Source: Pseudomonas protegens CHA0 (GTDB lineage Bacteria > Pseudomonadota > Gammaproteobacteria > Pseudomonadales > Pseudomonadaceae). Taken from it: DNA of 64,000 nucleotides. This document shows positions 6,940 to 22,964 of the stretch, piece by piece. The DNA is taken from NCBI RefSeq assembly GCF_000397205.1, contig NC_021237.1:6455001-6519000 (forward strand), written 5' to 3'. The position numbers and the translations under genes are program-made. The notes below the pieces were generated by a model, which worked only from the letters and a program-made list of their open reading frames with translations, had not been told where the DNA came from and did no database searches. Position 1 is the stretch's first letter, and every line of letters begins with the position of its first letter.

Positions 6940-7794
6940 TCAGTCACCGGTGGCGACAGGCCGCTGCGCATCGGTGATCCACTCGCTCCACGAACCGGCA
7001 TACAGCCGCCCCAGGGGGTAGCCGGCCAGGCTCAGGGCAAACAGGTTGTGGCAGGCGGTGACGCCAGAACCGCAATAGGCCACCAGTTGCTGCGGGTCAC
7101 GCCCGGCCAGTTTCTGCGCGAAACGCTGCTTGAGCTGATCGGCCGGTAGAAAGCGCCCATCCTCCCCCAGGTTGTCGGTGAACGCCGCGCATTGCGCCCC
7201 GGGAATATGCCCGGCCACCGGGTCGATGGGTTCCACTTCGCCACGAAAGCGCGGCAGGCCACGGGCATCCAGCAGGGTCAGGTCCGTCTGGCCCAGGCGC
7301 TTGCCCAGGTGCTCGGCATCCAGCAGCAGGCTGTGATCAGGGTGCCCGACGAACTGCCCCGGCGCGTTTTCCGGGGCATCCAGGCTCAGCGGCAAGCCAG
7401 CGGCGTGCCAGGCTTTCAGGCCGCCATCGAGAATGAAAACGCCATCACGCTTGCCCAGCCAGGCCAGCAACCACCAGGCACGAGCGGCGTAGGAACCGGG
7501 GCCGTCGTCGTAGAGCACGATCTCGCTGTCGTTATCGATGCCCCAGGCCTGCAGGCGCGCCACCAACTGCGCGGGCTCCGGCAACGGATGCCGACCGGTC
7601 ACGCCCTTGATCACCGGCGCGCTCAGATCCCGGTTCAGGTCCGCGAAATGCGCCCCGGCGATATGCCCGTCGGCGTAACTGCGCTGGCCGTAATCCGGGT
7701 CTTCCAGAGCAAAGCGACAATCCAGAATCACCAGGCCGGGCTGCTGTTTCTTCTGGTCCAGGGCAAGCGGGCTGATCAACTGCGCGAGGGGCAT
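6940..7794 (-). CDS. Sulfurtransferase, 3-mercaptopyruvate/thiosulfate type (SseA-like)
   Basis: 284 aa with two tandem rhodanese domains. The C-terminal one carries the active-site loop YCGSGVTAC with the catalytic cysteine. The CG[S/T]GVTA form resembles 3-mercaptopyruvate sulfurtransferases more than thiosulfate rhodaneses, so MPST activity is the better guess. The N-terminal domain has the DGPGSYAARAWW motif but no catalytic Cys, as is normal. It is cytoplasmic with no signal peptide. It lies downstream of the TetR gene on the same strand with a 33-bp gap and may be cotranscribed. Confidence 0.9.
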   Translation of the reverse strand: MPLAQLISPLALDQKKQQPGLVILDCRFALEDPDYGQRSYADGHIAGAHFADLNRDLSAPVIKGVTGRHPLPEPAQLVARLQAWGIDNDSEIVLYDDGPGSYAARAWWLLAWLGKRDGVFILDGGLKAWHAAGLPLSLDAPENAPGQFVGHPDHSLLLDAEHLGKRLGQTDLTLLDARGLPRFRGEVEPIDPVAGHIPGAQCAAFTDNLGEDGRFLPADQLKQRFAQKLAGRDPQQLVAYCGSGVTACHNLFALSLAGYPLGRLYAGSWSEWITDAQRPVATGD

Positions 7795-7827
7795 GGCGGG
7801 CTCCTGTGAATAAGTTGGAGGTTGATC

Positions 7828-8499
7828 CTACTGCACTTCTTCCAGGGCTTGGGCCAAGGGCACATAAAACTCTTCGAACAGGCCGTTGACCGCTTCCCGG
7901 GCCTGGTCGGTGACGAAACCGGCCTCCAGCACCAGCACCTGGTACACCCCACGCTTGATGGCTTCTTCGCTCAGGTGCGTGGAGTTTTCCCGGGTCGTGC
8001 ACAGAAAACGCACCCAGGAGGTGAGGATGATCCAGGCATTGAGGGTCAGGGATTCGATCTGCACCTTGTCCATGGCGACGATCCCGGCGTCGACGAAACG
8101 CCCGTAGATGGCCATGCCCTGGATCAGGCAGCGCTGGGAAAAACGTCGGTAGCGCGCAGCCAGCTCGGGGTCGCTGTCCAGCAGGTGCTCCAGGTCGCGG
8201 TGCAGGAAGCGATAGCGCCACATGGCCGCCAGCAGAGCCTGCAGGTAGTAGCGCTTGTCTTGCACGGTGACCGCGCGCCCGGGGGGCGGTCGAAGGAAGC
8301 TGTCCACCAGGCTTTCGTACTCGGCAAACAGCACGGCGATGATCGCCTGCTTGTTGGGGAAGTGGTAGTACAGGTTGCCCGGGGAAATCTCCATGTGCGC
8401 CGCAATATGGTTGGTGCTGACGTTACGCTCGCCCTGCTGGTTGAAGAGTTCGAGGCTGAACTGGACGATGCGTTCGCGGGTTTTTATGCGTGGGGCCAT
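7828..8499 (-). CDS. TetR/AcrR-family regulator of the divergent dehydrogenase operon
   Basis: 223 aa. The N-terminal helix-turn-helix is typical (ERIVQFSLELFNQQGERNVSTNHIAAHMEISPGNLYYHFPNK), and the C-terminal helical domain should bind an inducer. It is divergent from the aldehyde dehydrogenase operon. A perfect 9-bp inverted repeat lies between -35 and -10 of the candidate promoter for that operon, so I infer repression of the ALDH-GMC genes and probably autoregulation. The inducer may be a fatty or aromatic aldehyde or alcohol, but the sequence does not say. Confidence 0.88.
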   Translation of the reverse strand: MAPRIKTRERIVQFSLELFNQQGERNVSTNHIAAHMEISPGNLYYHFPNKQAIIAVLFAEYESLVDSFLRPPPGRAVTVQDKRYYLQALLAAMWRYRFLHRDLEHLLDSDPELAARYRRFSQRCLIQGMAIYGRFVDAGIVAMDKVQIESLTLNAWIILTSWVRFLCTTRENSTHLSEEAIKRGVYQVLVLEAGFVTDQAREAVNGLFEEFYVPLAQALEEVQ

Positions 8500-8583
8500 G
8501 GGCGTGGGCTTTAATCAGAAGGCTGGCGTGCATCTTACGTTCTATCCCCCCGGGGATAAATCGCCACCGGCGCAGGAGGGCAA

Positions 8584-8613
8584 TTGACATTTTAGAGCAT
8601 AAGCTCTAAAAAA
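8584..8613 (+). promoter_or_regulatory. Promoter with overlapping palindromic operator (TetR site)
   Basis: A perfect -35 TTGACA (8584-8589) is followed after 17 bp by a weak -10 TAAAAA (8607-8612). Overlying the spacer and -10 is the inverted repeat TTTTAGAGC (8590-8598), ATAA, GCTCTAAAA (8603-8611). This arrangement suits repression by the adjacent TetR protein. Assignment to that regulator is inference from position. Confidence 0.7.
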
Positions 8614-8643
8614 CTAGCCACCTTACAAAGACGGAGCCCGTCC

Positions 8644-10074
8644 ATGTCTGCCGAAATCGCTTACCTGCAGGATTCCCTTCAGCAACAGGACGAGCTGCTT
8701 GAGCTGTTCGAAGCCCAGCGCCGGGCCTTTGCCGCCAACCCGATGCCCCCCGCAGCGCAACGCCAGCAATGGCTGAAGGCACTGCAGGAGCTGCTTAGCA
8801 ACGAGCGCCAGGCCCTGATCGATGCCATCAGCCAGGACTTCAGCAACCGCAGCGCCGACGAAACCCTGCTGGCCGAGCTGATGCCCAGCCTGCACGGCAT
8901 CCACTACGCCAGCAAACACCTGAAGAAATGGATGAAGCCGTCCCGCCGCGCCGTGGGCCTGGCCTTCCAGCCGGCCTCGGCCAAGGTGGTCTACCAGCCC
9001 CTGGGGGTGGTCGGGATCATAGTGCCGTGGAACTACCCGCTGTACCTGTGCATGGGCCCGCTGGTGGGGGCGCTGGCCGCCGGCAACCGAGTGATGCTCA
9101 AGCTCAGTGAGTCCACACCCGCCACCGGGCAACTGCTCAAGCAACTGCTGGCCCGGGTCTTCCCCGAGGACCTGGTGTGCGTGGTGCTGGGCGAGGCCGA
9201 GGTGGGCATGGCGTTTTCCAAGCTGCGCTTTGACCACCTGCTGTTCACCGGCGCCACCAGCATCGGCAAGCACGTGATGCGCGCCGCCGCGGAAAACCTG
9301 ACCCCGGTGACCCTGGAACTGGGCGGCAAATCCCCGGCCATCGTCTCCAGCACCGTGCCCCTCAAGGACGCTGCCGAACGCATCGCCTTCGGCAAGACCC
9401 TCAACGCCGGGCAGACCTGCGTCGCCCCGGACTACGTACTGGTACCGGAAGAGCGCGTCGGCGCCTTTGTCGAAGCCTATCGACAGGTGGTGCGCGGTTT
9501 TTTCCCGACCCTGGCAGACAACCCCGACTACACCGCCATCATCAACCAGCGCCAGTTGGCGCGGCTCAACGGTTACCTGAGCGACGCCACCAGCAAGGGC
9601 GCGCTGCTGGTGCCCCTGTTCGAGCAGAGCCAGGAACGCCGCCTGGGCCACAGCCTGCTGCTCAATGTCAGCGATGACATGACCGTGATGCAGGACGAGA
9701 TCTTCGGCCCGATCCTGCCCATCGTGCCCTACCGGACCCTGGACCAGGCCTTCGCCTATATCACCCAGCGTCCGCGCCCGCTGGCGCTGTACTACTTCGG
9801 CTACGACAAGGCCGAGCAGCAACGGGTGCTCAACGAAACCCACTCCGGCGGCGTGTGCCTCAACGACACCCTGCTGCATGTGGCCCAGGACGACCTGCCG
9901 TTCGGCGGCATCGGCCCTTCCGGCATGGGCCACTACCACGGGCATGAAGGCTTCCTGACCTTCAGCAAGGCCAAGGGGGTGTTCATCAAGCAGCGGTTCA
10001 ACGCCGCCCGCCTGATCTACCCGCCGTATGGCAAATCGATCCAGAAGCTCATCCAGAAGCTGTTCATTCGTTAA
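8644..10074 (+). CDS. Coniferyl-aldehyde-dehydrogenase-type aldehyde dehydrogenase
   Basis: 476 aa, full-length for the class-3-like ALDH group annotated as coniferyl aldehyde dehydrogenase (CalB-like). The Rossmann-fold NAD(P) region holds GVVGIIVPWNYPLYL and FTGATSIGKHV. The catalytic Glu lies in LELGGKSPAIV and the catalytic Cys in NAGQTCVAPDY. It would oxidise aldehydes produced by the downstream GMC oxidoreductase. First gene of an operon with the small Tat lipoprotein and the GMC gene. Physiological substrate is unproven; long-chain aliphatic or aromatic aldehydes are both possible. Confidence 0.9.
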   Translation: MSAEIAYLQDSLQQQDELLELFEAQRRAFAANPMPPAAQRQQWLKALQELLSNERQALIDAISQDFSNRSADETLLAELMPSLHGIHYASKHLKKWMKPSRRAVGLAFQPASAKVVYQPLGVVGIIVPWNYPLYLCMGPLVGALAAGNRVMLKLSESTPATGQLLKQLLARVFPEDLVCVVLGEAEVGMAFSKLRFDHLLFTGATSIGKHVMRAAAENLTPVTLELGGKSPAIVSSTVPLKDAAERIAFGKTLNAGQTCVAPDYVLVPEERVGAFVEAYRQVVRGFFPTLADNPDYTAIINQRQLARLNGYLSDATSKGALLVPLFEQSQERRLGHSLLLNVSDDMTVMQDEIFGPILPIVPYRTLDQAFAYITQRPRPLALYYFGYDKAEQQRVLNETHSGGVCLNDTLLHVAQDDLPFGGIGPSGMGHYHGHEGFLTFSKAKGVFIKQRFNAARLIYPPYGKSIQKLIQKLFIR

Positions 10075-10101
10075 CCAGTACAACGCCGGGTAATAACAAC
10101 A

Positions 10102-10647
10102 ATGACCCCTAGCCTGTCTGAAACACCCGCGCTGTCACGGCGCGGCCTGCTGAAAATCGGCCTCTGCGCCAGCGCTTTCCTGGCCACTGCCGGGCTCGGC
10201 GCCAGCCTCAGCGGTTGCTCCGCCAGCACGCCCGCCAGCGGTTTCACCATGCTGCGCAGCAATGACCTGCCGTTCCTGCGGGCGCTGATCCCGGTGATGC
10301 TCGAAGGCGCCGTACCGGCGGACAAGATGCCCGCCGCCATCGAAGGCACCCTGGCCAACCTGGACAACGCCCTCAATCACCTGTCGACCGAGATGTTCAA
10401 GCTCACCCAGCAGCTGTTCGATGTACTGGGCATGGCGGTCACCCGCGGCCCGCTGACGGGGATCTGGGGCAGTTGGGAAAACGCCAGCGCGGATGACATC
10501 CGCAATTTCCTCAGCCGCTGGGAAAACAGCTTCCTGGCCTTGCTGCGCATGGGCCATGCCTCGTTGCTGCAACTGGTGATGATGGCTTGGTACACCCGGC
10601 CCGAGTCCTGGGCCCATTGCGGTTATCCCGGGCCACCGAAGGTCTGA
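10102..10647 (+). CDS. Small Tat-exported lipoprotein, probable partner of the GMC oxidoreductase
   Basis: 181 aa. A twin-arginine signal (LSRRGLLKIG) is followed by a hydrophobic stretch and a lipobox-like LSGC near residue 39, suggesting a folded, lipidated envelope protein. The mature part is mostly alpha-helical with no recognised catalytic motif. Its size and its position immediately before a GMC dehydrogenase resemble the small third subunit of gluconate/fructose-type dehydrogenases. I infer it helps secrete or anchor the GMC enzyme, which has no signal of its own. Confidence 0.7.
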   Translation: MTPSLSETPALSRRGLLKIGLCASAFLATAGLGASLSGCSASTPASGFTMLRSNDLPFLRALIPVMLEGAVPADKMPAAIEGTLANLDNALNHLSTEMFKLTQQLFDVLGMAVTRGPLTGIWGSWENASADDIRNFLSRWENSFLALLRMGHASLLQLVMMAWYTRPESWAHCGYPGPPKV

Positions 10648-10655
10648 CCGGCCTT

Positions 10656-10779
10656 TGTAGCCGCTGCCACAGGCTGCGAACGAGCGAGGCGCTCGCGGGG
10701 CACTGGGGGTTCGGCTGCAGATCGTCAAGCAAGGCCCTGGGGCCTTTTCGCAGCTTCGCAGGCTCAGCAGCAGCTACAG
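10656..10779. repeat. Long intergenic palindromic element, copy A
   Basis: Ends are complementary: TGTAGCCGCTG at the left and CAGCAGCTACA at the right. An inner pair also matches (CTGCGAACG against TTTTCGCAG). The block ATCGTCAAGCAAGGCCC ... GGGCCTTTTCGCAG recurs in copy B at 62768-62896. It has no coding capacity and separates the small lipoprotein gene from the GMC gene within the operon. Confidence 0.75.
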
Positions 10780-10820
10780 TGGATGCGCGCCGAGCCATCA
10801 ATAATAAGAGAGCACCCGAT

Positions 10821-12416
10821 ATGCCTGTACCTGATCTGTTCCGCGAAGGCCTGAATCGTGGCTGGAAAACCTACAACGGCTCGCAGTTGGAGCAGGACCT
10901 GACCCTGGAAGCCGATGTCGCCATCATCGGCAGCGGCGCCGGGGGCGGCACCACTGCCGAGATCCTCAGCGCCGCCGGCTACAAGGTGCTGCTGATCGAA
11001 GAAGGCCCGCTCAAGACCAGCGACGACTTCAAGATGCTCGAAGACCAGGCCTACACCAGCCTCTATCAGGAGGGCATCGGGCGCATGAGCAAGGATGGCG
11101 CCATCACCATCCTCCAGGGCCGCGCCGTGGGCGGCACTACCTTGATCAACTGGACGTCGAGCTTCCGCACGCCTGACCCGACCCTGGAGCACTGGGCCCG
11201 TGAGCACGGGGTGGTGGGCCACAGCTCGGCCGAAATGGCGCCCTGGTTCGAGAAAATGGAACAGCGCCTGGGCGTCGCGCCCTGGGTCATGCCGCCCAAC
11301 GCCAACAACGACGTGATCCGCAAGGGCTGCGAAGCCCTGGGCTACAGCTGGCACGTGATTCCGCGCAACGTGCGCGGCTGCTGGAACCTGGGCTACTGCG
11401 GCCTGGGCTGCCCGACCAACGCCAAGCAGTCGATGCTGGTGACCACCATTCCGGCGACCCTGGAGAAAGGTGGCGAGCTGCTGTACCTGGCCCGGGCCGA
11501 GCGCCTGCAAATAAAGGACGACAAGGTCACCAGCCTGCAATGCCAGGCCATGGACGCCCGCTGCGTGGCCCCCACCGGGCGCACCATCACGGTCAAGGCC
11601 AAGCATTACGTGCTGGCCGGTGGCGGCATCAACAGCCCGGCCCTGCTGTTGCGTTCCGATGCGCCGGACCCGCATTCGCGGCTGGGCAAACGCACCTTCC
11701 TGCACCTGGTCAACTTCTCCGCCGGGCAGTTCGACGAGGTGATCAACCCGTTCTACGGCGCGCCGCAGTCGATCTATTCCGACCACTTCCAGTGGCAGGA
11801 CGGCACCACCGGCAAGATGTCCTACAAACTTGAAGTGCCGCCCCTGCAGCCGGCCCTGGCCAGCACCCTGCTGGGCGGGTTCGGGCCGCAGAGCGGGCTG
11901 TCCATGGAGAAACTGCCCCACACCCATGCCATGCTTGCCCTGCTGCGGGACGGCTTTCACCCCGACAGCACCGGCGGCAACGTCGAACTGCGGGGTGACG
12001 GCACCCCTGTCCTCGACTATCAGGTTTCACCCTACGCCTGGGACGGACTGCGCCGGGCCTTCCACAGCATGGCGGAGATCCAGTTCGCTGGCGGCGCCAA
12101 GGCGGTCAAGCCGCTGCACAGCGATGCACGCTTCGCCAAGAACCTCGACGAAGTGCGGGCGCAGATCGACGGCCTGGACCTGGCCCTGTACCGCACCCGC
12201 CTGGGCAGTGCCCACGTGATGGGCGGTTGCGCCATGGGCGAAGATCCGAAAACCGCGGTCACCGACAGCCTCGGGCGCCACCATCAACTGCACAACCTGT
12301 CGGTCCACGACGGCTCGCTGTTTCCCACCAGCATCGGCGCCAACCCGCAGCTGTCGGTCTATGGGCTCACGGCGCAATTGGCCAGCGCCTTGGCGGAGCG
12401 CCTGAAATCAGTGTGA
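10821..12416 (+). CDS. GMC family FAD-dependent oxidoreductase
   Basis: 531 aa. I start at the ATG at 10821 (MPVPDLFREGLNRGWKTYN), preceded by AAGAGAG; the longer open frame upstream runs through repeat element A and is not credible. The FAD motif is VAIIGSGAGGGTTAEIL, a cysteine-rich stretch is CWNLGYCGLGCPTNAKQSM, and the C-terminal active-site region includes SAHVMGGCAMG and the GANPQLSVYGLTAQLA end. It would oxidise an alcohol to an aldehyde for the upstream dehydrogenase. The electron acceptor is probably membrane-linked, as in gluconate-dehydrogenase relatives. Confidence 0.88.
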   Translation: MPVPDLFREGLNRGWKTYNGSQLEQDLTLEADVAIIGSGAGGGTTAEILSAAGYKVLLIEEGPLKTSDDFKMLEDQAYTSLYQEGIGRMSKDGAITILQGRAVGGTTLINWTSSFRTPDPTLEHWAREHGVVGHSSAEMAPWFEKMEQRLGVAPWVMPPNANNDVIRKGCEALGYSWHVIPRNVRGCWNLGYCGLGCPTNAKQSMLVTTIPATLEKGGELLYLARAERLQIKDDKVTSLQCQAMDARCVAPTGRTITVKAKHYVLAGGGINSPALLLRSDAPDPHSRLGKRTFLHLVNFSAGQFDEVINPFYGAPQSIYSDHFQWQDGTTGKMSYKLEVPPLQPALASTLLGGFGPQSGLSMEKLPHTHAMLALLRDGFHPDSTGGNVELRGDGTPVLDYQVSPYAWDGLRRAFHSMAEIQFAGGAKAVKPLHSDARFAKNLDEVRAQIDGLDLALYRTRLGSAHVMGGCAMGEDPKTAVTDSLGRHHQLHNLSVHDGSLFPTSIGANPQLSVYGLTAQLASALAERLKSV

Positions 12417-15346: not shown

Positions 15347-16543
15347 ATGTCCCTGCCAAGCCTGCGCCTCAAAGCCAACGCCGATCGCCGCCTGCGCGCC
15401 GGCCACCTGTGGGTCTACAGCAACGAAATCGATGTAGCCGCCACCCCTCTGCACGGCTTCAAGGCAGGCGACCAGGCAGTGCTGGAAGCCGCCGGCGGCA
15501 AGCCCCTGGGCGTGGTCGCCATGAGCCCGAACAACCTGATCTGCGCCCGCCTGCTGTCGCGCGATGCCAAGCTGGCCCTGGACAAGTCGCTGCTGGTGCA
15601 CCGCCTGAACGTGGCCCTGTCCCTGCGCGAGCGCCTGTTCGACAAACCGTTCTACCGCCTGGTGTACGGCGACTCCGACCTGCTGCCGGGCCTGGTGGTC
15701 GATCGTTTCGGCGACATCCTGGTGGTACAGATCGCCTCCGCGACCATGGAAACCCACAAGGACGACATCATTGCCGCCCTGACCCAGGTGCTCAAGCCCA
15801 GCGGCATCCTGTTCAAGAACGACTCCGCCGCCCGTGACGCCGAAGGCCTGGGACGCTACGTCGAAACCGTGTTCGGCCTGGTGCCGGAGTGGGTCGCCCT
15901 GGAAGAGAACGGCGTGAAGTTCGAAGCCCCGGTGATCCAGGGCCAGAAAACCGGCTGGTTCTACGACCACCGCATGAACCGTGCCCGCCTGGCGCCTTAT
16001 GCCAAGGGCAAGCGCGTGCTGGACCTGTACAGCTACATCGGCGGCTGGGGCGTGCAGGCCGCGGCTTTCGGCGCCAGCGAAGTGTTCTGCGTCGACGCCT
16101 CGGCCTTCGCCCTCGACGGCGTGGAGCGCAACGCCGCGCTGAACGGCTTTTCCGAGAAAATGACCTGCATCGAAGGCGACGTCTTCGAAGCCCTGAAGGA
16201 ACTCAAGGCCAGTGAAGAGCGCTTCGACGTGATCGTTGCCGACCCGCCCGCCTTCATCAAGCGCAAGAAAGACCTGAAGAACGGCGAAGGCGCCTACCGC
16301 CGCCTTAACGAGCAAGCCATGCGCCTGCTCAACAAGGACGGCATCCTGGTCAGCGCTTCGTGCTCGATGCACCTGCCCGAGGACGACCTGCAGAACATCC
16401 TCCTGACCAGCGCCCGCCACCTGGACCGCAACATCCAGCTGCTGGAGCGCGGCGGCCAGGGCCCGGACCACCCGGTACACCCGGCCATTCCGGAAACCCG
16501 CTACATCAAGAGCATCACCTGCCGCCTGCTGCCCAACAGCTGA
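15347..16543 (+). CDS. rlmI: 23S rRNA (cytosine1962-C5)-methyltransferase RlmI
   Basis: 398 aa. An N-terminal PUA-like domain (LKANADRRLRAGHLWVYSNEI) precedes a central EEHEE-type region and a C-terminal SAM methyltransferase domain (VLDLYSYIGGWGVQAAAFGA, catalytic VADPPAFIKRKKD, SCSMHLPEDD). It methylates C1962 of 23S rRNA. It starts 27 bp after the TATAAT. It marks the left border of the peptide/SagB island: the next genes are not part of the usual neighbourhood. Confidence 0.94.
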   Translation: MSLPSLRLKANADRRLRAGHLWVYSNEIDVAATPLHGFKAGDQAVLEAAGGKPLGVVAMSPNNLICARLLSRDAKLALDKSLLVHRLNVALSLRERLFDKPFYRLVYGDSDLLPGLVVDRFGDILVVQIASATMETHKDDIIAALTQVLKPSGILFKNDSAARDAEGLGRYVETVFGLVPEWVALEENGVKFEAPVIQGQKTGWFYDHRMNRARLAPYAKGKRVLDLYSYIGGWGVQAAAFGASEVFCVDASAFALDGVERNAALNGFSEKMTCIEGDVFEALKELKASEERFDVIVADPPAFIKRKKDLKNGEGAYRRLNEQAMRLLNKDGILVSASCSMHLPEDDLQNILLTSARHLDRNIQLLERGGQGPDHPVHPAIPETRYIKSITCRLLPNS

Positions 16544-16552
16544 GCCACTGCC

Positions 16553-16582
16553 TGCCCAGGGACGCCACAGCATCCCTGGGCA
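16553..16582. terminator. Strong hairpin after rlmI
   Basis: TGCCCAGGGA (16553-16562) and TCCCTGGGCA (16573-16582) form a perfect 10-bp stem with a 10-nt loop starting 9 bp after the rlmI stop. There is no T-run, so termination may be partial or factor-dependent. Confidence 0.45.
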
Positions 16583-16637
16583 ACCGCTCGAGCGCCTCGC
16601 TCCCCTCTCGCCTCTCCCCTCTCGCCGCCCGGGCCAT

Positions 16638-16765
16638 TGGATAACCCAGGGAAACCCGCGCTTATATACCTATGATCCATCAAAGTAACTAGCCAATATC
16701 CTACAGTGCTCTAGGCAATCACTTACCTAATAACTACTTGATTCCTCTCTATTGCTGTCTACTCT
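16638..16765 (+). promoter_or_regulatory. A+T-rich leader with two candidate promoters for the peptide/SagB operon
   Basis: The DNA from about 16636 to 16818 is visibly richer in A+T than its surroundings. Candidate 1 is TTGGAT (16638-16643), 19 bp, TATATA (16663-16668). Candidate 2 is TTGATT (16738-16743), 16 bp, TACTCT (16760-16765) with an upstream TG. Neither is a full consensus match and the start of transcription is unknown. Confidence 0.35.
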
Positions 16766-16771
16766 TCGGAA

Positions 16772-16788
16772 GTCGCTTAGGAAGCGAC
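16772..16788. promoter_or_regulatory. Inverted repeat just upstream of the 23-codon gene
   Basis: GTCGCTT-AGG-AAGCGAC is a perfect 7-bp inverted repeat with a 3-nt loop, ending 17 bp before the AGGAG ribosome binding site. It could be an operator or a 5'-UTR hairpin affecting translation of the peptide. Its role is inference. Confidence 0.4.
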
Positions 16789-16818
16789 ATTCATTCAAAT
16801 CGTTTAGGAGCAATAACA

Positions 16819-16890
16819 ATGAAAGCTATCTCCCTCGAATCGAAAAAGATCGCCAACCTGGCTTGCCTCGCAGCGGCTAAATCCCGCTAA
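16819..16890 (+). CDS. 23-aa candidate precursor peptide of the SagB/AurF cluster
   Basis: 23 codons plus TAA, beginning MKAISLESKK and ending ACLAAAKSR. The strong site AGGAG (16806-16810) is 8 nt before the ATG, so translation looks deliberate. The peptide is basic, with four Lys and one Arg, and has a single Cys at residue 16 inside a small hydrophobic stretch. It has no Tyr, Trp, His or Phe. No database family is recognised. A stem-loop and 70 bp separate it from the SagB-type gene. I infer a ribosomally made substrate or scaffold for the two oxidative enzymes. The alternative is a translated leader that only regulates the operon. Confidence 0.6.
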   Translation: MKAISLESKKIANLACLAAAKSR

Positions 16891-16896
16891 GTAATT

Positions 16897-16931
16897 GATG
16901 AACTGGGGAGTGCCGGCTACCCAGCTTCATC
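16897..16931 (+). promoter_or_regulatory. Stem-loop between the peptide gene and the sagB-like gene
   Basis: GATGAA-CTGGG (16897-16907) pairs with CCCAG-C-TTCATC (16920-16931), giving 11 bp with one bulged C and a loop of about 12 nt. The hairpin starts 7 nt after the peptide stop and is followed by TTTGGTC rather than a T-run. Such a structure after a short first cistron could reduce read-through or stabilise the upstream mRNA, raising peptide output over enzyme output. Confidence 0.55.
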
Positions 16932-16960
16932 TTTGGTCAAGTTCAGAGTTTTAAAAGAAC

Positions 16961-18040
16961 ATGCAAATAAACCCGAACTTTTTCATACTTGCCCGCCCGC
17001 CCTTCACTGTTATCTGGAACTATAAAGATCACACTCAGTTCGAACTGGACTCGATCTATTCCACACGCCTCATACAACTTGTCGAAGACCCTTCGCAGTA
17101 TGACGATAAGAATGAAATAGATAGTGCATTCGCCGCCGCCGGGCTCCTGTCCAACGAGACTTTCGAGCCACTTGAATGGGGCTGGGATGAACTGTCGCGG
17201 ATCTTCCACATCGGCACCAAGAACCTGCCCTTCGAGCAAGTGCCCCAGGATATTCATGAGTGGTCCGCCCAATACCTCGAGCATTGCGATCAGGTACTGG
17301 ACACCCCGGCCCCCTCAGCCCGCTTTGCCGAAACCTCCCACAATGGTCTGATCCGCCTGCCCGCGCCGGTATTGGAAACCGCCAGCTCCCTGAACCAGGT
17401 GCTGCTGCAGCGCAAGACTTCACGCTCCTTTTCCCAGCAGGCCGTGGCCCTGGAAGAGCTCAGCACCCTGCTCTACCTGTCCCTGGGCTACCTCAAGGAA
17501 CGGGAAGCCGACACGGACGAGACCGTCCCCGAAGCCCTGCGGCCAAGGCGCAGCAGCCCTTCCGGCGGTGGCCTGAACGCCTGCGAGGGTTATGTCTATG
17601 CCGCCAGGGTCCGCGGCCTGGAGCCGGGCCTCTATTACTACCACCCGGAGCTGCACGCCTTGCGGCCCGTGCACCCGCTTCCAGAAGAACCCCTGGGCCT
17701 GCTGCTGGCTGGCCAGCACTTCGTCAACGAACTGCCCCTGGGCCTGTTCCTGACCTGCCGCTTCGACAAACTGTGGTGGAAATACGAACACTCCCGGGCC
17801 TACCGCATGGCCTATGTCGAGGCCGGGCATATCTCGCAAACCTTCCAGCTCGCGGCCACTGCCCTGGGCCTGGACACCTGGCTGACGGGAGCCCTGAGCG
17901 ACGAGCGCGTGGAGCAATTGCTGGGGCTGCAGGACGCCGCGGAGCAGCCGCTGTTCTTTGTCGGCTGCGGCCAAGGTGATGGCCAGGTGCAATGCAAGGA
18001 ACTCAAGGCCCTGATCGAACAGCGGGAGCGCGAACAGTAA
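16961..18040 (+). CDS. SagB-type (ThcOx-like) FMN dehydrogenase
   Basis: 359 aa. Residues about 145-345 are the nitroreductase-fold SagB domain: R151-KTSR-S-F (FMN phosphate contact), SSPSGGGLN at 198-206, and the signature KYEHSRAYRMAYVEAGH at 274-290. SagB proteins usually oxidise azolines to azoles on ribosomal peptides. The N-terminal about 130 residues are extra. Residues 14-65 (beta strands followed by helices ending FAAAGLL) could be a winged-helix PqqD-like peptide-recognition domain, but that is only my reading. No YcaO cyclodehydratase is nearby, so classical azole formation is not encoded here. The stop overlaps the next ATG (TAATG). Confidence 0.85.
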   Translation: MQINPNFFILARPPFTVIWNYKDHTQFELDSIYSTRLIQLVEDPSQYDDKNEIDSAFAAAGLLSNETFEPLEWGWDELSRIFHIGTKNLPFEQVPQDIHEWSAQYLEHCDQVLDTPAPSARFAETSHNGLIRLPAPVLETASSLNQVLLQRKTSRSFSQQAVALEELSTLLYLSLGYLKEREADTDETVPEALRPRRSSPSGGGLNACEGYVYAARVRGLEPGLYYYHPELHALRPVHPLPEEPLGLLLAGQHFVNELPLGLFLTCRFDKLWWKYEHSRAYRMAYVEAGHISQTFQLAATALGLDTWLTGALSDERVEQLLGLQDAAEQPLFFVGCGQGDGQVQCKELKALIEQREREQ

Positions 18041-19017
18041 TGCACCCCGCCGCATCGTCCAAAGAGGCCCCGGCAGGCCGGCGTCCCTACTCCCTCGGCG
18101 ACTGGGACAACCGCTCCGCGGTGCGCTCGCGCAAGAGCAGCTACCAGCTACCGCCCCACAGCGAGCTCGAACAGGAACTGCAGACCCGTGACTGGTTTCC
18201 GCCGGCCTTCATCCCCTACTTCGCCGACCCGGCCGTCCAGCACGCCGGGAGGACGGTACAGCAGCGCCTGGCGGCCAACCATCTGGTGTACTTCCTGCAC
18301 TACACGACGATCCTGGAGCACAAGATCGTCAACCGCTCGGTGGAAACCCTGATCCACGGGGAACTGGCGATCGAGCTGCCGGAGACGATGAAAATCGCGG
18401 CCCTGCAGTTGTATACCGACGAGGGCTATCACGCCCTGTTCTCCTTCAAGCTGGCGGAGCAGGTGGCGAATGGTTACGCCATGCCAGCCTGGCAGCCACT
18501 GCCCAGGCGCATCCGCCTGATGCACGACCTGCTGGCCCGCTGCGCCGATTCTCAACGGCCCCTGGTCTGGTTCCTGCTGGGTTTCGTCTCCGAAACCATC
18601 ATTGCCAAGGAGTTGCTGAGCATCACCGGTGATGGGCTGGTGTCCACGGTCTACCAGATGTTCAGGGAGCACCTGGAAGACGAGGCCCGGCACAGTCGTT
18701 ATTTCAGCGAAGTGTTCGACTATGTCTGGGCACGACTGTCGCCGCAGCAGCAGGTTTTTTCCGCCAGCCAACTGATCGATATCATTTTCATCTTCGCTGC
18801 CGTGGACCAGGAGTGGCTGAGCGCAAGCCTGAACGAGTCCGGCATTCCCCTCGCCGCGGCACATGCCGCCATCCACAGCCTGATTCAGCCGAGTGCAGAA
18901 GTGCTGCGCGCCCGCTCGATCGCCGGCGCCACCCTGCAAGCCATGAAGCGCGCAGGTTTCTTCGAGCACGATGATAACCGCCGACTCTTCACCCAGACAG
19001 GACTGATCGATGCCTGA
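18040..19017 (+). CDS. AurF-type di-iron N-oxygenase family protein
   Basis: 325 aa from the ATG at 18040 in the TAATG overlap. Seven metal ligands can be placed: E93 (ILEHK), E128 and H131 (YTDEGYHA), E185 (VSETIIAKE), H211, E215 and H218 (HLEDEARHS). Their spacing (35, 3, 54, 26, 4, 3) closely follows AurF (35, 3, 57, 27, 4, 3), including the extra histidine found in AurF and CmlI. Those enzymes oxidise aryl amines to nitro compounds with a di-iron-peroxo centre. The substrate here is unknown. It is translationally coupled to the SagB gene (1-bp overlap) and the MFS gene (8-bp overlap). Confidence 0.85.
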   Translation: MHPAASSKEAPAGRRPYSLGDWDNRSAVRSRKSSYQLPPHSELEQELQTRDWFPPAFIPYFADPAVQHAGRTVQQRLAANHLVYFLHYTTILEHKIVNRSVETLIHGELAIELPETMKIAALQLYTDEGYHALFSFKLAEQVANGYAMPAWQPLPRRIRLMHDLLARCADSQRPLVWFLLGFVSETIIAKELLSITGDGLVSTVYQMFREHLEDEARHSRYFSEVFDYVWARLSPQQQVFSASQLIDIIFIFAAVDQEWLSASLNESGIPLAAAHAAIHSLIQPSAEVLRARSIAGATLQAMKRAGFFEHDDNRRLFTQTGLIDA

Positions 19018-20221
19018 AATCAGGGATGACTCTGCCTCCACGACCAGGAAGGTCGGCGCCATTGTCTTGCTCATGGCCATGGTCATGCTCGGGGTGTTCC
19101 CGATCGACGTGCTCTTGCCTTCTTTTCCTGCACTGTCCCAACACTTTGCTACCAGCGCCGCCGATATCGCCCTGTCCGTCAGCCTGTTCGCCATCGGCAT
19201 CTCGATCTCCCAATTGCTGATCGGCCCGCTGTCGGATGCCCTGGGCCGCAAGACCCTGCTGCTGGCCGGCATGGCCGTATCGGTCGGCGGCGCTCTGGGC
19301 TGCGTCTGGGCCAGGGACTACAACTGGTTTCTGGTGTTTCGCGTGGTCCAGGCACTGGGCTGTGGCTGCTTCGTGCTGTCCCAGGCGCTGGTCCAGGACC
19401 TGTTCGTCGGCCAGGAGCGCGACCGCCTGCGGATCCTCATGGTCACCGCCAGCGGCCTGTGCATTTCCCTCTCGCCCCTGGCCGGGACCCTGCTGCAAAG
19501 CCTGATGGGCTGGCCAGGCAGCTTCTATGTGTTCAGCGCGATTGCCGTCCTGGTGTTTCTCAAGGCGCTGGCCACCCTGGAAAACCCGCCGATCGTCAGG
19601 AGCGGCCCGCGCACCGGCATCCTCCAGGCCTACCGACGGGTCTGCAGCAACTTCAGTTTCGTCGCCTACTGGCTGATCTCGGCCATCGTCTTCGCTTGCC
19701 ACTTCTCGTTCATCGTGGTCTCGCCGCTGATCTTCCTGGAGCAACTGCAGCTCAGCAGCTACGAGTTTTCCCTGACCCTGCTGCTCTACGGCGCGGCCTA
19801 CGTGATTGGCGGGGTGGTAGCCGGGGTGCTCAACAAATACCTGGAGCCCGGCACCCAGATCATTACCGGGTTGTGCCTGATCTTCCTCGCCGGGCTGGTC
19901 ATGCTGCTGTTGGCCAGCCAGTTCGGCCTGTCCATCAGCACGGTGCTGGTGCCGATGATCATCTGCACCGCCGGCACCACCATCACCCGGCCCGCCGCCA
20001 CGTCCAGGGCCATGGAACTGTTCCCGGACAATGCCGGCGCCTCGGCCTCGGCCGGCAACACGCTGATTTTCGTCATGGGCGGGCTGATCAGCGCCGTGAT
20101 CAACCTCAGCGCCAGCGACCTGCAGACCACCCTGGCCCTGAGTTTCATCGCCCTGAGCAGCGTCGGCCTGCTGGTCAACCAGCGCATCAGCCGCCGCGCC
20201 CGGAACCTGCGCCTGGCCTGA
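19010..20221 (+). CDS. Bcr/CflA-type MFS drug efflux transporter
   Basis: 403 aa with about 12 hydrophobic segments. MFS motif A is visible in the first inner loop (LIGPLSDALGRKTLLLAG), with the Bcr/CflA-like N-terminus (MLGVFPIDVLLPSFPALSQHF). This drug:H+ antiporter family exports small molecules such as bicyclomycin, chloramphenicol or dipeptides. The ATG overlaps the AurF-like stop by 8 bp, so it is the last gene of the operon. It probably exports, and gives self-resistance to, the cluster's product (inference). Confidence 0.9.
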   Translation: MPEIRDDSASTTRKVGAIVLLMAMVMLGVFPIDVLLPSFPALSQHFATSAADIALSVSLFAIGISISQLLIGPLSDALGRKTLLLAGMAVSVGGALGCVWARDYNWFLVFRVVQALGCGCFVLSQALVQDLFVGQERDRLRILMVTASGLCISLSPLAGTLLQSLMGWPGSFYVFSAIAVLVFLKALATLENPPIVRSGPRTGILQAYRRVCSNFSFVAYWLISAIVFACHFSFIVVSPLIFLEQLQLSSYEFSLTLLLYGAAYVIGGVVAGVLNKYLEPGTQIITGLCLIFLAGLVMLLLASQFGLSISTVLVPMIICTAGTTITRPAATSRAMELFPDNAGASASAGNTLIFVMGGLISAVINLSASDLQTTLALSFIALSSVGLLVNQRISRRARNLRLA

Positions 20222-20251
20222 AGCCCGGATTGGCCCGGGTCCTGGTGGCCA

Positions 20252-20821
20252 TCAGGCGGTTGTGGCAGCTCCCTCGCTGAAACGGGCCAGCCCGCGGCCA
20301 GTCAGGCACAGGCCAAGGGAGAAGGCCAGGGTCGGGCCGGCAAAGAACAGCAGGGACATCCACCCGCTCTTGAAAGGGTCGAGATAACGGTAAGCAAGCC
20401 ACAGCTTGAACAGCTTCAGCACCAGCCAGGGCCATGGCAAGGCCAGCACCAGCCAGAGGACATTGCCCAGCAGGCGCCGGCCCAATCGTGCCCGCCCTTG
20501 CACCCGACTCACCACGGCCACGGCGACCAGCAGCCCGGCCGCCACGCAGTACTCCATCCGCGGGCTGGAGGGTAGCTCGTCATACAGCCGTACCAGCCCC
20601 GCCGCCCCCAGGCCCAGCAGCAACATGAGCCCCCAGGTGCGCCACTGGCGCTGCTGCCCGGCCAGCATTTGCAACCCCCCGCCGCCCACCAGTAGTGCAG
20701 CACCCGTTGCGACGATGCCCAGGCCGGACCAATCGCTGTACAACAACAGCCACATCAGCAGCAGCCCCTGCAACAGGCCGACGCCCAGGCAGAACTTGAT
20801 GGATTGCAGAGTCGCGGACAT
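20252..20821 (-). CDS. Hypothetical multi-pass membrane protein
   Basis: 189 aa from the ATG at 20821. About five or six hydrophobic segments cover most of the length, and short Arg-rich loops (SRVQGRARLGRRLLG) suggest cytoplasmic faces. I recognise no family. It is convergent with the MFS gene (30-bp gap) and lies between the island and ilvD. It may belong to neither. Confidence 0.65.
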   Translation of the reverse strand: MSATLQSIKFCLGVGLLQGLLLMWLLLYSDWSGLGIVATGAALLVGGGGLQMLAGQQRQWRTWGLMLLLGLGAAGLVRLYDELPSSPRMEYCVAAGLLVAVAVVSRVQGRARLGRRLLGNVLWLVLALPWPWLVLKLFKLWLAYRYLDPFKSGWMSLLFFAGPTLAFSLGLCLTGRGLARFSEGAATTA

Positions 20822-21122
20822 TCCAGCTCCATTGGAAGGTAATCGAAGGGCGGCGAGTCTAAACCAGGATGGCAGCGTCCGGTGATATCCAGGCAATCAA
20901 TGCCACAGAGCGGCCCCGGCATTCCTTCCTGACGCCAGCGGTGTAGAATCGGCGAATTCATCGCCAGTCATCCCCCGGCGGGTTTATGAGCTCAGGCTGA
21001 GGCGCGCGGCGATCCCGCGGCGTCATCGGCAGCTTTCGGACACACGGCCATTTCTGAGTGTTCCCGAGGTCAATAGAAGCTCACTCCCCATTTGTTACCT
21101 GATTAGCCGCCCGGAGTGCTCC
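20822..21122 (+). other. Intergenic region and leader upstream of ilvD
   Basis: This 301-bp gap lies between the divergent membrane-protein start and ilvD. A -10-like TAGAAT at 20944-20949, followed by CGGCG, is the only promoter-like element; I find no clear -35. If used, it would give an ilvD leader of about 165 nt. I see no branched-chain-codon leader peptide, REP unit or riboswitch-like fold in it. Confidence 0.4.
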
Positions 21123-22964
21123 ATGCCTGATTACCGCTCGAAAACATCCACCCATGGCCGCAACATGGCCGGCGCCCGCGCCCTGTGGCGCGCCACGGGG
21201 ATGAAAGATGACGACTTCAAGAAGCCGATCATCGCCATTGCCAACTCCTTCACCCAGTTCGTCCCGGGGCACGTGCACCTGAAGGACCTGGGCCAGCTGG
21301 TGGCTCGCGAGATCGAACGCGCCGGTGGCGTGGCCAAGGAATTCAACACCATCGCCGTGGACGACGGCATCGCCATGGGCCACGACGGCATGCTGTATTC
21401 CCTGCCGAGCCGCGAGATCATCGCCGACTCCGTGGAATACATGGTCAACGCCCACTGTGCCGACGCCATCGTGTGCATTTCCAACTGCGACAAGATCACC
21501 CCCGGCATGCTGATGGCCGCCCTGCGCCTGAACATCCCGGTGATCTTCGTTTCCGGCGGCCCGATGGAAGCCGGCAAGACCAAGCTCGCCAGCCATGGCC
21601 TGGACCTGGTGGACGCCATGGTCATCGCCGCCGACTCCAGCGCTTCTGACGAGAAGGTTGCCGAGTACGAGCGCAGCGCCTGCCCGACCTGCGGTTCGTG
21701 CTCCGGCATGTTCACCGCCAACTCCATGAACTGCCTGACCGAAGCCCTGGGGCTCGCCCTGCCGGGCAACGGTTCGACCCTGGCCACCCACAGCGATCGC
21801 GAAGAGCTGTTCCTGCGGGCCGGGCGCACCATCGTCGAGCTGTGCCAGCGCTACTACGGCGACAACGACGAGTCGGTCCTGCCGCGCAACATCGCCAACT
21901 TCAAGGCGTTCGAGAACGCCATGACCCTGGACATCGCCATGGGCGGTTCCACCAACACCATCCTGCACCTGCTGGCCGCCGCCCAGGAAGCCGAGATCGA
22001 CTTCGACCTGCGGGACATCGATCGCCTGTCGCGCCACGTGCCGCAGCTGTGCAAAGTGGCGCCGAACATCCAGAAGTACCACATGGAAGACGTGCACCGC
22101 GCCGGCGGCATCTTCAGCATCCTCGGCGAACTGGCCCGTGGCGGCCTGCTGCACACCGACCTGCCCACCGTGCACAGCAAGACCATGGCCGAAGGCATCG
22201 CCCAGTGGGACATCACCCAGACCAGCGACGAAGCCGTGCATCACTTCTTCAAGGCCGGCCCGGCGGGCATCCCGACCCAGACGGCGTTCAGCCAGTCGAC
22301 CCGTTGGGACAGCCTCGACGATGACCGTGAAAACGGCTGCATCCGCAGTGTCGAGCATGCCTACTCGAAAGAAGGCGGCCTGGCCGTGCTCTACGGCAAC
22401 ATCGCCCTGGACGGCTGCGTGGTGAAGACCGCCGGTGTCGACGAGTCGATCCATGTCTTCGAAGGCAACGCCAAGATCTTCGAGAGCCAGGACAGCGCGG
22501 TGCGCGGCATCCTCGCCGACGAGGTGAAGGAAGGCGACATCGTGATCATCCGTTACGAAGGCCCGAAAGGCGGCCCGGGCATGCAGGAAATGCTCTATCC
22601 GACCTCCTACCTGAAGTCCAAGGGCCTGGGCAAAGCCTGCGCCCTGCTCACCGACGGCCGCTTCTCCGGCGGCACCTCGGGGCTGTCCATCGGCCACGCC
22701 TCGCCTGAAGCGGCAGCCGGTGGCGCCATCGGCCTGGTGCAGGACGGCGACAAGGTACTGATCGACATTCCCAACCGCTCGATCAACCTGTTGGTCAGCG
22801 ACGAGGAACTGGCGGCCCGCCGTGTCGAGCAGGACAAGAAAGGCTGGAAACCGGTGGAAGCACGCCCGCGCAAGGTGACCACCGCGCTGAAGGCCTACGC
22901 CCTGCTGGCCACCAGCGCCGACAAGGGTGCGGTGCGCAACAAGGCCATGCTCGACGGCCTGTGA
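21123..22964 (+). CDS. ilvD: Dihydroxy-acid dehydratase IlvD
   Basis: 613 aa, full length. Iron-sulfur cluster cysteines lie in [11 protein letters not shown] and [27 protein letters not shown]-terminal signatures [16 protein letters not shown] and [17 protein letters not shown] are intact. It dehydrates 2,3-dihydroxy-isovalerate and -methylvalerate in valine, isoleucine and leucine synthesis. It is monocistronic: a strong terminator follows within 20 bp. Confidence 0.98.

Follow-up and report, generated by a model that had tools for sequence, protein, structure and literature searches.

What might be made by two oxidative enzymes and an exporter which are encoded just behind a gene of only 23 codons? 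The question is raised by a locus of Pseudomonas protegens CHA0, as found within the stretch of 64,000 nucleotides analysed here (contig NC_021237.1, positions 6,455,001 to 6,519,000; ‘the window’, to which coordinates refer unless another locus is named). There a four-gene unit spans 16819-20221, all genes on the + strand, and encodes in order a 23-residue peptide, a SagB-type dehydrogenase, an AurF-type di-iron oxygenase, and an exporter of the major facilitator superfamily (MFS). We consider it quite probable that this is a compact pathway of the type giving rise to ribosomally synthesized and post-translationally modified peptides (RiPPs), one guided by a RiPP recognition element (RRE) and lacking a YcaO gene, i.e., with the 23-residue peptide as precursor, SagB and AurF as modifying enzymes, and the MFS protein for export. 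This reading is preferred because an RRE-like domain and an N-terminal peptide motif are kept while the peptide core and the partner enzymes change. The four-gene unit, that is, probably stands for a natural-product family of ribosomal origin that has yet to be described.

The short gene

The putative precursor gene (16819-16890, +) encodes MKAISLESKKIANLACLAAAKSR, with residues 1-7 as the proposed leader and residues 8-23 as the proposed core. It is preceded by a Shine-Dalgarno sequence, AGGAG, as read from the sequence at 16806-16810 (+), consistent with an earlier reading of the same DNA from sequence alone, which had described a 23-codon gene with a strong ribosome site upstream of sagB. 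That sequence-only reading had also looked to conservation of this small open reading frame (ORF), and conserved it is. Eighty SagB relatives were taken from named Pseudomonas contigs and the window was added, giving 81 loci; every one of the 81 carries upstream of sagB a short ORF that fits one common pattern, with 23 codons in 77 of them. Among these 77 peptides E7, A12, N13 and L14 never vary, and conserved residues span positions 2 to 21 without a run of any one codon. Pooled over 92 distinct sequences, the ratio of nonsynonymous to synonymous polymorphism (pN/pS) is 0.40 in frame versus 1.05 and 2.19 for the two alternative frames, with peptides of other than 23 residues left out of the codon counts; the DNA flanking the ORF varies far more than does the ORF. 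A profile of the peptide, as searched against 119 Pseudomonas genomes, gave 37 strong matches in 36 genomes, each beside sagB, with the sole match away from sagB being a weak one in a single genome (G064, E 0.03). A chance ORF is ruled out by presence in 81 of 81 loci, by selection at the amino-acid level, and by the confinement of profile matches to sagB. On these sequence comparisons the short ORF is a real gene, and one that is selected for what it encodes.

In an enlarged table of 141 loci, for which some places were fetched twice, the peptide is found by pattern in 136, with another (L101) added by eye; AurF is present in 124, of which 123 have the peptide by pattern. The resulting 74 distinct AurF-type peptides all possess A12-N13, and residue 14 is Leu in 71 and otherwise Met, Phe or Trp. 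A Cys, Ser or Thr is found at any given core position in at most 38 of these peptides, position 8 being the best, and the Cys16 of the window peptide is kept in only 13.

Upstream of the peptide an ANGGA motif is seen in 112 of 123 AurF-type loci, and the ribosome site (16795-16818 in the window, along with 122 other loci) often reads ACAAGGAG, which we take to be close to the RsmA/CsrA consensus. Gac/Rsm control of this site is possible, or instead it may be a plain Shine-Dalgarno site.

SagB and its N-terminal domain

The sagB gene (16961-18040, +) encodes a protein of 359 amino acids, a putative dehydrogenase using flavin mononucleotide (FMN). It matches PF00881 at 70.2 bits (cut-off 23.5) and TIGR03605 at 121 bits (cut-off 78.4), which places it within the latter family. 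As with SagB, ThcOx and McbC, it thus has the TIGR03605 domain and a Lys-Tyr pair, and ThcOx is matched over the length of the model, including its winged helix-turn-helix domain. The pair, K274-Y275, is present in 24 of 24 SagB sequences (L070, with its internal stop, was left out of the alignment) and aligns with the Lys-Tyr of ThcOx; presumably it has a catalytic role in SagB-type dehydrogenases. The best specific model for this protein, and also for the SagBs of three diverged loci considered below (L094, L104 and L106), is TIGR04511, a ‘putative peptide maturation dehydrogenase’ of NCBIfam, with all four falling below its cut-off of 240 (168.2 bits for the window), such that none is a member.

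With residues 1-70 of SagB (16961-17170, +) modelled alone, the 20 best rows of a structural comparison, taken from a second look at the ranking, are all RiPP-pathway proteins. As modelled, the N-terminal 70 residues resemble RiPP recognition elements, and we count an RRE-like domain as present. Leader-binding domains of this kind are common among RiPPs, if not universal. General features of RiPP loci are found here as well, i.e., an encoded precursor beside modifying enzymes, with a conserved, leader-like N-terminus and a variable core.

Changing cores and changing partners

Five loci (L081 and L099-L102), all at the rlmI-ilvD site that is also occupied in the window, keep sagB and the MFS gene without AurF. 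Their peptides keep the N-terminal motif, and none has Ala-Asn; in its place are LAAF in three, VHHH in one and VGF in one, with residue 14 being Phe in four of the five, as aligned by us. In a SagB tree these loci form one clade (98 SH-aLRT) among AurF-bearing lineages, and for that reason the joint absence of AurF and of Ala-Asn is counted as about one event. Two other loci lacking AurF differ from these: L159 has a broken sagB with IAN still present in its peptide, and in L090 the absence of AurF simply reflects the end of the contig.

In four of the more diverged loci (L094, L095, L097 and L098) SagB is accompanied by a carbamoyltransferase of NodU type and a different MFS protein; these loci have precursors of 55-58 residues with an invariant SNDAY. 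In L094, with a 58-residue precursor, the order is precursor, RRE-SagB, NodU-type carbamoyltransferase and MFS (7270-11163). These four appear to be a second RiPP-like family; in L097 and L098 sagB is in pieces. A further locus (L096, 2027-7745) has SagB with a tetratricopeptide-repeat (TPR) methyltransferase, a carbamoyltransferase and an MFS protein, and in its precursor Gln replaces Glu7. Outside of Pseudomonas, L104 (5908-7742) consists of a precursor, a terminator with a T run, SagB and a LysE-type exporter, its precursor MKKVEVEMKKFCALMPV-MKKSNVETKKFCALMPVMQKK being a tandem duplication of a leader-core unit; a PatB-like enzyme of the pyridoxal-phosphate (PLP) type lies about 1.2 kb further on.

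The N-terminus Mxx[IV]x[LIMV][EQ] is thus kept while cores differ (IANL, LAAF, SNDAY, KKFCALMPV). A constant N-terminus with a recognition domain, in combination with a core and a tailoring enzyme that change, is, so far as can be read from sequence, the pattern of a RiPP family. The sequence-only reading, that of a peptide-linked pathway, is largely borne out, given the peptide in 81 of 81 loci, its selection at the amino-acid level and the modelled RRE-like domain. The outcome which that reading had set against itself, enzymes acting on a free small molecule with no peptide involved, is spoken against by the RRE-like domain of SagB and by a precursor which diverges along with the partner enzymes.

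Two further SagB relatives may be noted. In L106 (6458-8320) the gene lies just downstream of one encoding a protein with many SPASPFMA-type repeats, and an upstream peptidase weakly resembles a lasso-peptide isopeptidase (41.7 bits, cut-off 400). In L105 (6246-7340, -), which belongs to the same order and whose SagB is of another family, an upstream 24-residue peptide ends in VYTTC and no adjoining modifying gene was seen.

AurF, the exporter and what is absent

The AurF-type gene (18040-19017, +; 325 amino acids) matches PF11583 at 60.7 bits (cut-off 29.6), and its product is, to judge from sequence, intact. Not one of the 108 AurF sequences compared departs from E93, E128, H131, E185, H211, E215 and H218, and these residues align with positions of the AurF structure 3chh which we take to be its iron ligands. 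It resembles the AurF 4-aminobenzoate N-oxygenase in these respects and differs in that the model for that enzyme, NF045603, is matched at only 19.6 bits versus a cut-off of 620, with a ribosomal peptide as the proposed substrate here. Both the SagB-type and the AurF-type labels given from sequence alone are thus borne out, each by a family match over cut-off. The label of Bcr/CflA exporter survives in part: the third large gene (19010-20221, +; 403 amino acids) encodes an MFS protein (MFS_1, 138.8 bits), and its best subfamily model is that of Bcr/CflA (TIGR00710), which as the score of 175.6 bits is under the cut-off of 200.9 supports ‘Bcr/CflA-like’ only.

Family scans of the cluster’s large genes found no YcaO, radical SAM or protease gene, as had been stated earlier, and also no HEXXH, MNIO (multinuclear non-heme iron-dependent oxidase) or GNAT gene, with AurF and MFS as the partners of SagB. 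The scans returned no match of the PEARL (peptide aminoacyl-tRNA ligase) type among these three genes, the rest of the genome not having been searched for PEARL, and a PEARL ligase in the cluster is what would mark a pearlin. The only YcaO of the genome (C1:3127852-3128874) lies about 3.3 Mb from the window, i.e., at 3.13 Mb versus 6.46 Mb. Far from the window there is also a second AurF-family match (C1:4016608-4017012, 30.1 bits).

We reject azoline formation, since the cluster contains no YcaO and the core lacks a Cys, Ser or Thr at any fixed position, those being the marks of linear azol(in)e-containing peptides (LAPs) and thiazole/oxazole-modified microcins (TOMMs). Unlike the azoline dehydrogenases SagB, ThcOx and McbC, the window SagB has no YcaO or E1-like gene in its cluster, and so, with the core also wanting a fixed Cys, Ser or Thr, azoline oxidation is unlikely.

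A proposed pathway

The closest parallels are YcaO-free clusters of Pseudomonas in which a SagB- or nitroreductase-type enzyme stands beside a small precursor that is a substrate of an oxygenase as well, namely pfl/pos (PflA-PflD), as described in the text available of PMC12636437, and the OS3 cluster of strain Os17, as described in that of PMC7726476. In the former account the nitroreductase domain of PflD converts Phe to Z-dehydrophenylalanine and its fused MNIO domain hydroxylates the next residue, Asp, such that dehydroPhe7 comes to stand beside hydroxyAsp8, and nitroreductases of YcaO-free RiPP clusters are described as rare and uncharacterised (PMC12636437, in part). Those clusters have a precursor of about 85 residues (Os1348), an MNIO-fused nitroreductase, a HEXXH enzyme and a GNAT protein (PMC12636437 and PMC7726476, in part). 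Here, by contrast, there is a 23-residue precursor, a SagB fused to an RRE-like domain, and an AurF-type enzyme; the pairing of MNIO-fused nitroreductase and HEXXH enzyme that would make for a member of pfl/pos is absent, the 359 residues of SagB instead comprising nitroreductase and RRE-like domains. A search of the open-access literature turned up no paper on this cluster and none joining SagB, AurF and Pseudomonas; PMC13060819 and PMC8939145, in the portions available, concern other systems.

The N-terminal MKxIxLE strand of the peptide would be held by the RRE domain at the front of SagB, which thereby would recruit and oxidise its own substrate. SagB would install an alpha,beta-desaturation in the hydrophobic core, with residue 14 as the best guess, and AurF would then oxygenate the core, the likeliest place being the invariant Asn13 or a residue beside it, next to where SagB acts. 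Desaturation with oxygenation at a neighbouring residue is proposed because of the geometry seen with PflD, which a hydrophobic or aromatic residue 14 with Asn13 as its neighbour would suit; the two sites are by that analogy guesses. Housekeeping proteases would trim the modified peptide and the MFS protein would export the product, with an intercistronic hairpin (below) serving to keep precursor mRNA more abundant than enzyme mRNA. Every chemical step, along with the order, the trimming, the export and the role of the hairpin, is something that we infer. That SagB acts on the 23-residue peptide is, from sequence, well supported; that AurF acts on this same peptide is likely, if less so than for SagB. 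Tentatively, and as something we would hesitate to assert, the whole may be put as a new RiPP family with precursors of 22-26 residues, in which an RRE-SagB desaturates the core and AurF N- or C-oxygenates the adjacent invariant Asn, this being then the first AurF-type enzyme to act on a ribosomal peptide, and in which the RRE-SagB module recurs, with cores to match, alongside carbamoyltransferases, methyltransferases or exporters of other kinds.

A carrier, a regulator or a subunit?

The peptide could instead be a carrier. In pearlin-type pathways a peptide serves as such, with a small amino-acid-like product being cut off, and here, similarly, the enzymes might act on an end or an added residue, the product then being released and exported. 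Consistent with this, the 74 distinct AurF-type peptides retain K21 in 63 cases and R23 in 61. The analogy may extend to the gvg (formylaminooxyvinylglycine, FVG) cluster of P. fluorescens WH6, which, according to the parts available of PMC8067088 and PMC8064604, resembles the window in possessing small ORFs, two in its case, and a redox gene of di-iron type, there heme-oxygenase-like, and has as well a carbamoyltransferase and LysE exporters, as in SagB relatives (NodU-type carbamoyltransferase in L094-L098, LysE-type exporter in L104; PMC8067088). That cluster differs in having, in those same parts, no SagB listed, an oxygenase of another family and a larger size. As the large genes of the window cluster include no PEARL, and the C-terminus varies between AurF-type subgroups (LVKKTK, LVRKAQ, SPVKTPSK) while A12-N13 stays constant, we regard a carrier, whether pearlin-type or perhaps gvg-type, as unlikely.

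What lies between the peptide and sagB bears on a different alternative. A strong hairpin can form there in nearly every locus, in the window at 16897-16931 (+) with GUGCCGGC as its apex at 16910-16917. In an alignment of 44 chosen loci, AurF-type only, 9 of 11 pairs are changed on both sides, 92.4% of cells pair versus 80.4% in shuffles, and covariation is 0.466 versus 0.246 shuffled, with none of 500 shuffles as high and with no more than 0.250 when the partner is offset by one to three columns. A covariance model yields 34 matches in 34 of 119 genomes, each abutting sagB, and that one match per genome, always beside sagB, rules out a repeat element as the source; across 16400-17200 no known RNA family was matched in Rfam up to E 10. 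By these comparisons the covarying hairpin is a new RNA element, found only between peptide and sagB, and probably it is a processing or partial-termination signal favouring precursor mRNA. In two loci, L104 and L091, it takes the form of a plain terminator, T run included. The apical GUGCCGGC is absent from all 11 distinct sequences of AurF-less or other-type loci whose cluster is intact.

Such a hairpin invites the suggestion that the peptide is a regulatory leader, as with the upstream peptides of some resistance genes, where stalling of ribosomes upon the peptide, or upon a drug, would alter the hairpin and control sagB-aurF-MFS, with the enzymes acting on some unrelated substrate. The resemblance of the exporter to the Bcr/CflA group would suit this, as would the third codon positions of the peptide, which at 0.324 in a comparison of 92 rows are more conserved than any 22-codon stretch of SagB (minimum 0.367). 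The window hairpin, however, ends at 16931, 29 bases before the ATG of sagB, thus leaving the start uncovered; selection is on residues, as pN/pS indicates, and these are spread over positions 2 to 21 with no single-codon run; neither the whole-peptide tandem duplication of L104 nor the 58 residues of L094 suits a stalling peptide; and the RRE-like domain goes unexplained. We consider a regulatory leader to be improbable. Least probable of all is that the peptide is an unmodified micro-subunit lending SagB activity or stability, in the manner of the small partners of some nitroreductase-fold enzymes (e.g., cyclodipeptide oxidases), with SagB and AurF oxidising a free metabolite. One would not expect a subunit to diverge over most of its length while its enzyme retains the RRE, and peptide divergence follows the change of partner.

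A number of results count against the account given here or weaken it. E7 is not invariant in the enlarged table, being Q in L158, whose sagB is broken, and in 5 loci the AurF reading frame is split in two. sagB itself is in pieces or partial in 16 of 141 loci, among which L106 and L161 are other SagB types and some places were fetched twice. Among 105 distinct intergenic sequences of AurF type, the apical GUGCCGGC of the hairpin is found in 84 and GCCGGC in 98. The SagB tree, finally, was quickly made and has its long branches grouped together; it is based on 114 of the 141 rows following removal of duplicate proteins and of those with fewer than 300 SagB model positions in one frame.

Distribution and surroundings

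About three in ten of the sampled Pseudomonas genomes carry the four-gene unit, and a sagB match is seen in 87 of 249, remnants and a few long PflD-like proteins included. In scans of order, class and phylum, SagB relatives turned up in 5 of 244 (the window and one other Pseudomonas among them), 22 of 321 and 17 of 398 genomes, respectively, and in the class scan nearly all matches aside from the window are to the catalytic part only. Full-length relatives are few outside of Pseudomonas, and the cluster is a standing part of that genus. It is also lost repeatedly, as concluded from sagB being broken or partial at L070, L073, L077, L155-L160 and L162, where peptide, AurF and MFS often are kept.

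The cluster is flanked by rlmI (15347-16543) and ilvD (21123-22964), just as had been claimed. To call it ‘inserted’ there misleads, however, because the rlmI-adjacent slot is its usual site in Pseudomonas: rlmI is directly upstream in 76 of 80 named loci, by which a recent insertion is ruled out. The window’s nearest kin in the SagB tree are L002-L005 and L103, with the clusters of L002-L005 lying away from rlmI, elsewhere in their genomes. One named strain has two copies, L002 and L007, on separate contigs, and following the L002 copy there is an ORF resembling a LuxR-type regulator (9382-10392).

Within the unit the peptide ORF ends 70 nt before sagB, the sagB stop and the aurF ATG share one base (at 18040), and the last 8 bases of aurF (up to 19017) are at once the first of the MFS gene (from 19010), so that three overlapping large genes, as described from sequence alone, are what is present. 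SagB, AurF and MFS genes also are kept together, adjoining in the named loci with L081, which lacks AurF, as the sole exception. Of the assertion of one transcription unit, gene order and overlap stand in support; a consensus scan of 16500-21130 found no sigma-70-like promoter.

Implications

Most gene callers would miss so short a precursor, and this may be why the cluster went unnoticed. It is a widespread and very small example of a YcaO-free RiPP nitroreductase system, with a sagB match in 87 of 249 and a strong peptide match in 36 of 119 Pseudomonas genomes, and two enzymes with a 23-mer would be easy to reconstitute. The AurF-less sisters and the carbamoyltransferase-bearing relatives represent natural swaps by which each enzyme may be assigned to a part of the peptide. 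The surprising part, should the reading of AurF be true, is that di-iron N-oxygenase chemistry would then reach ribosomal peptides.

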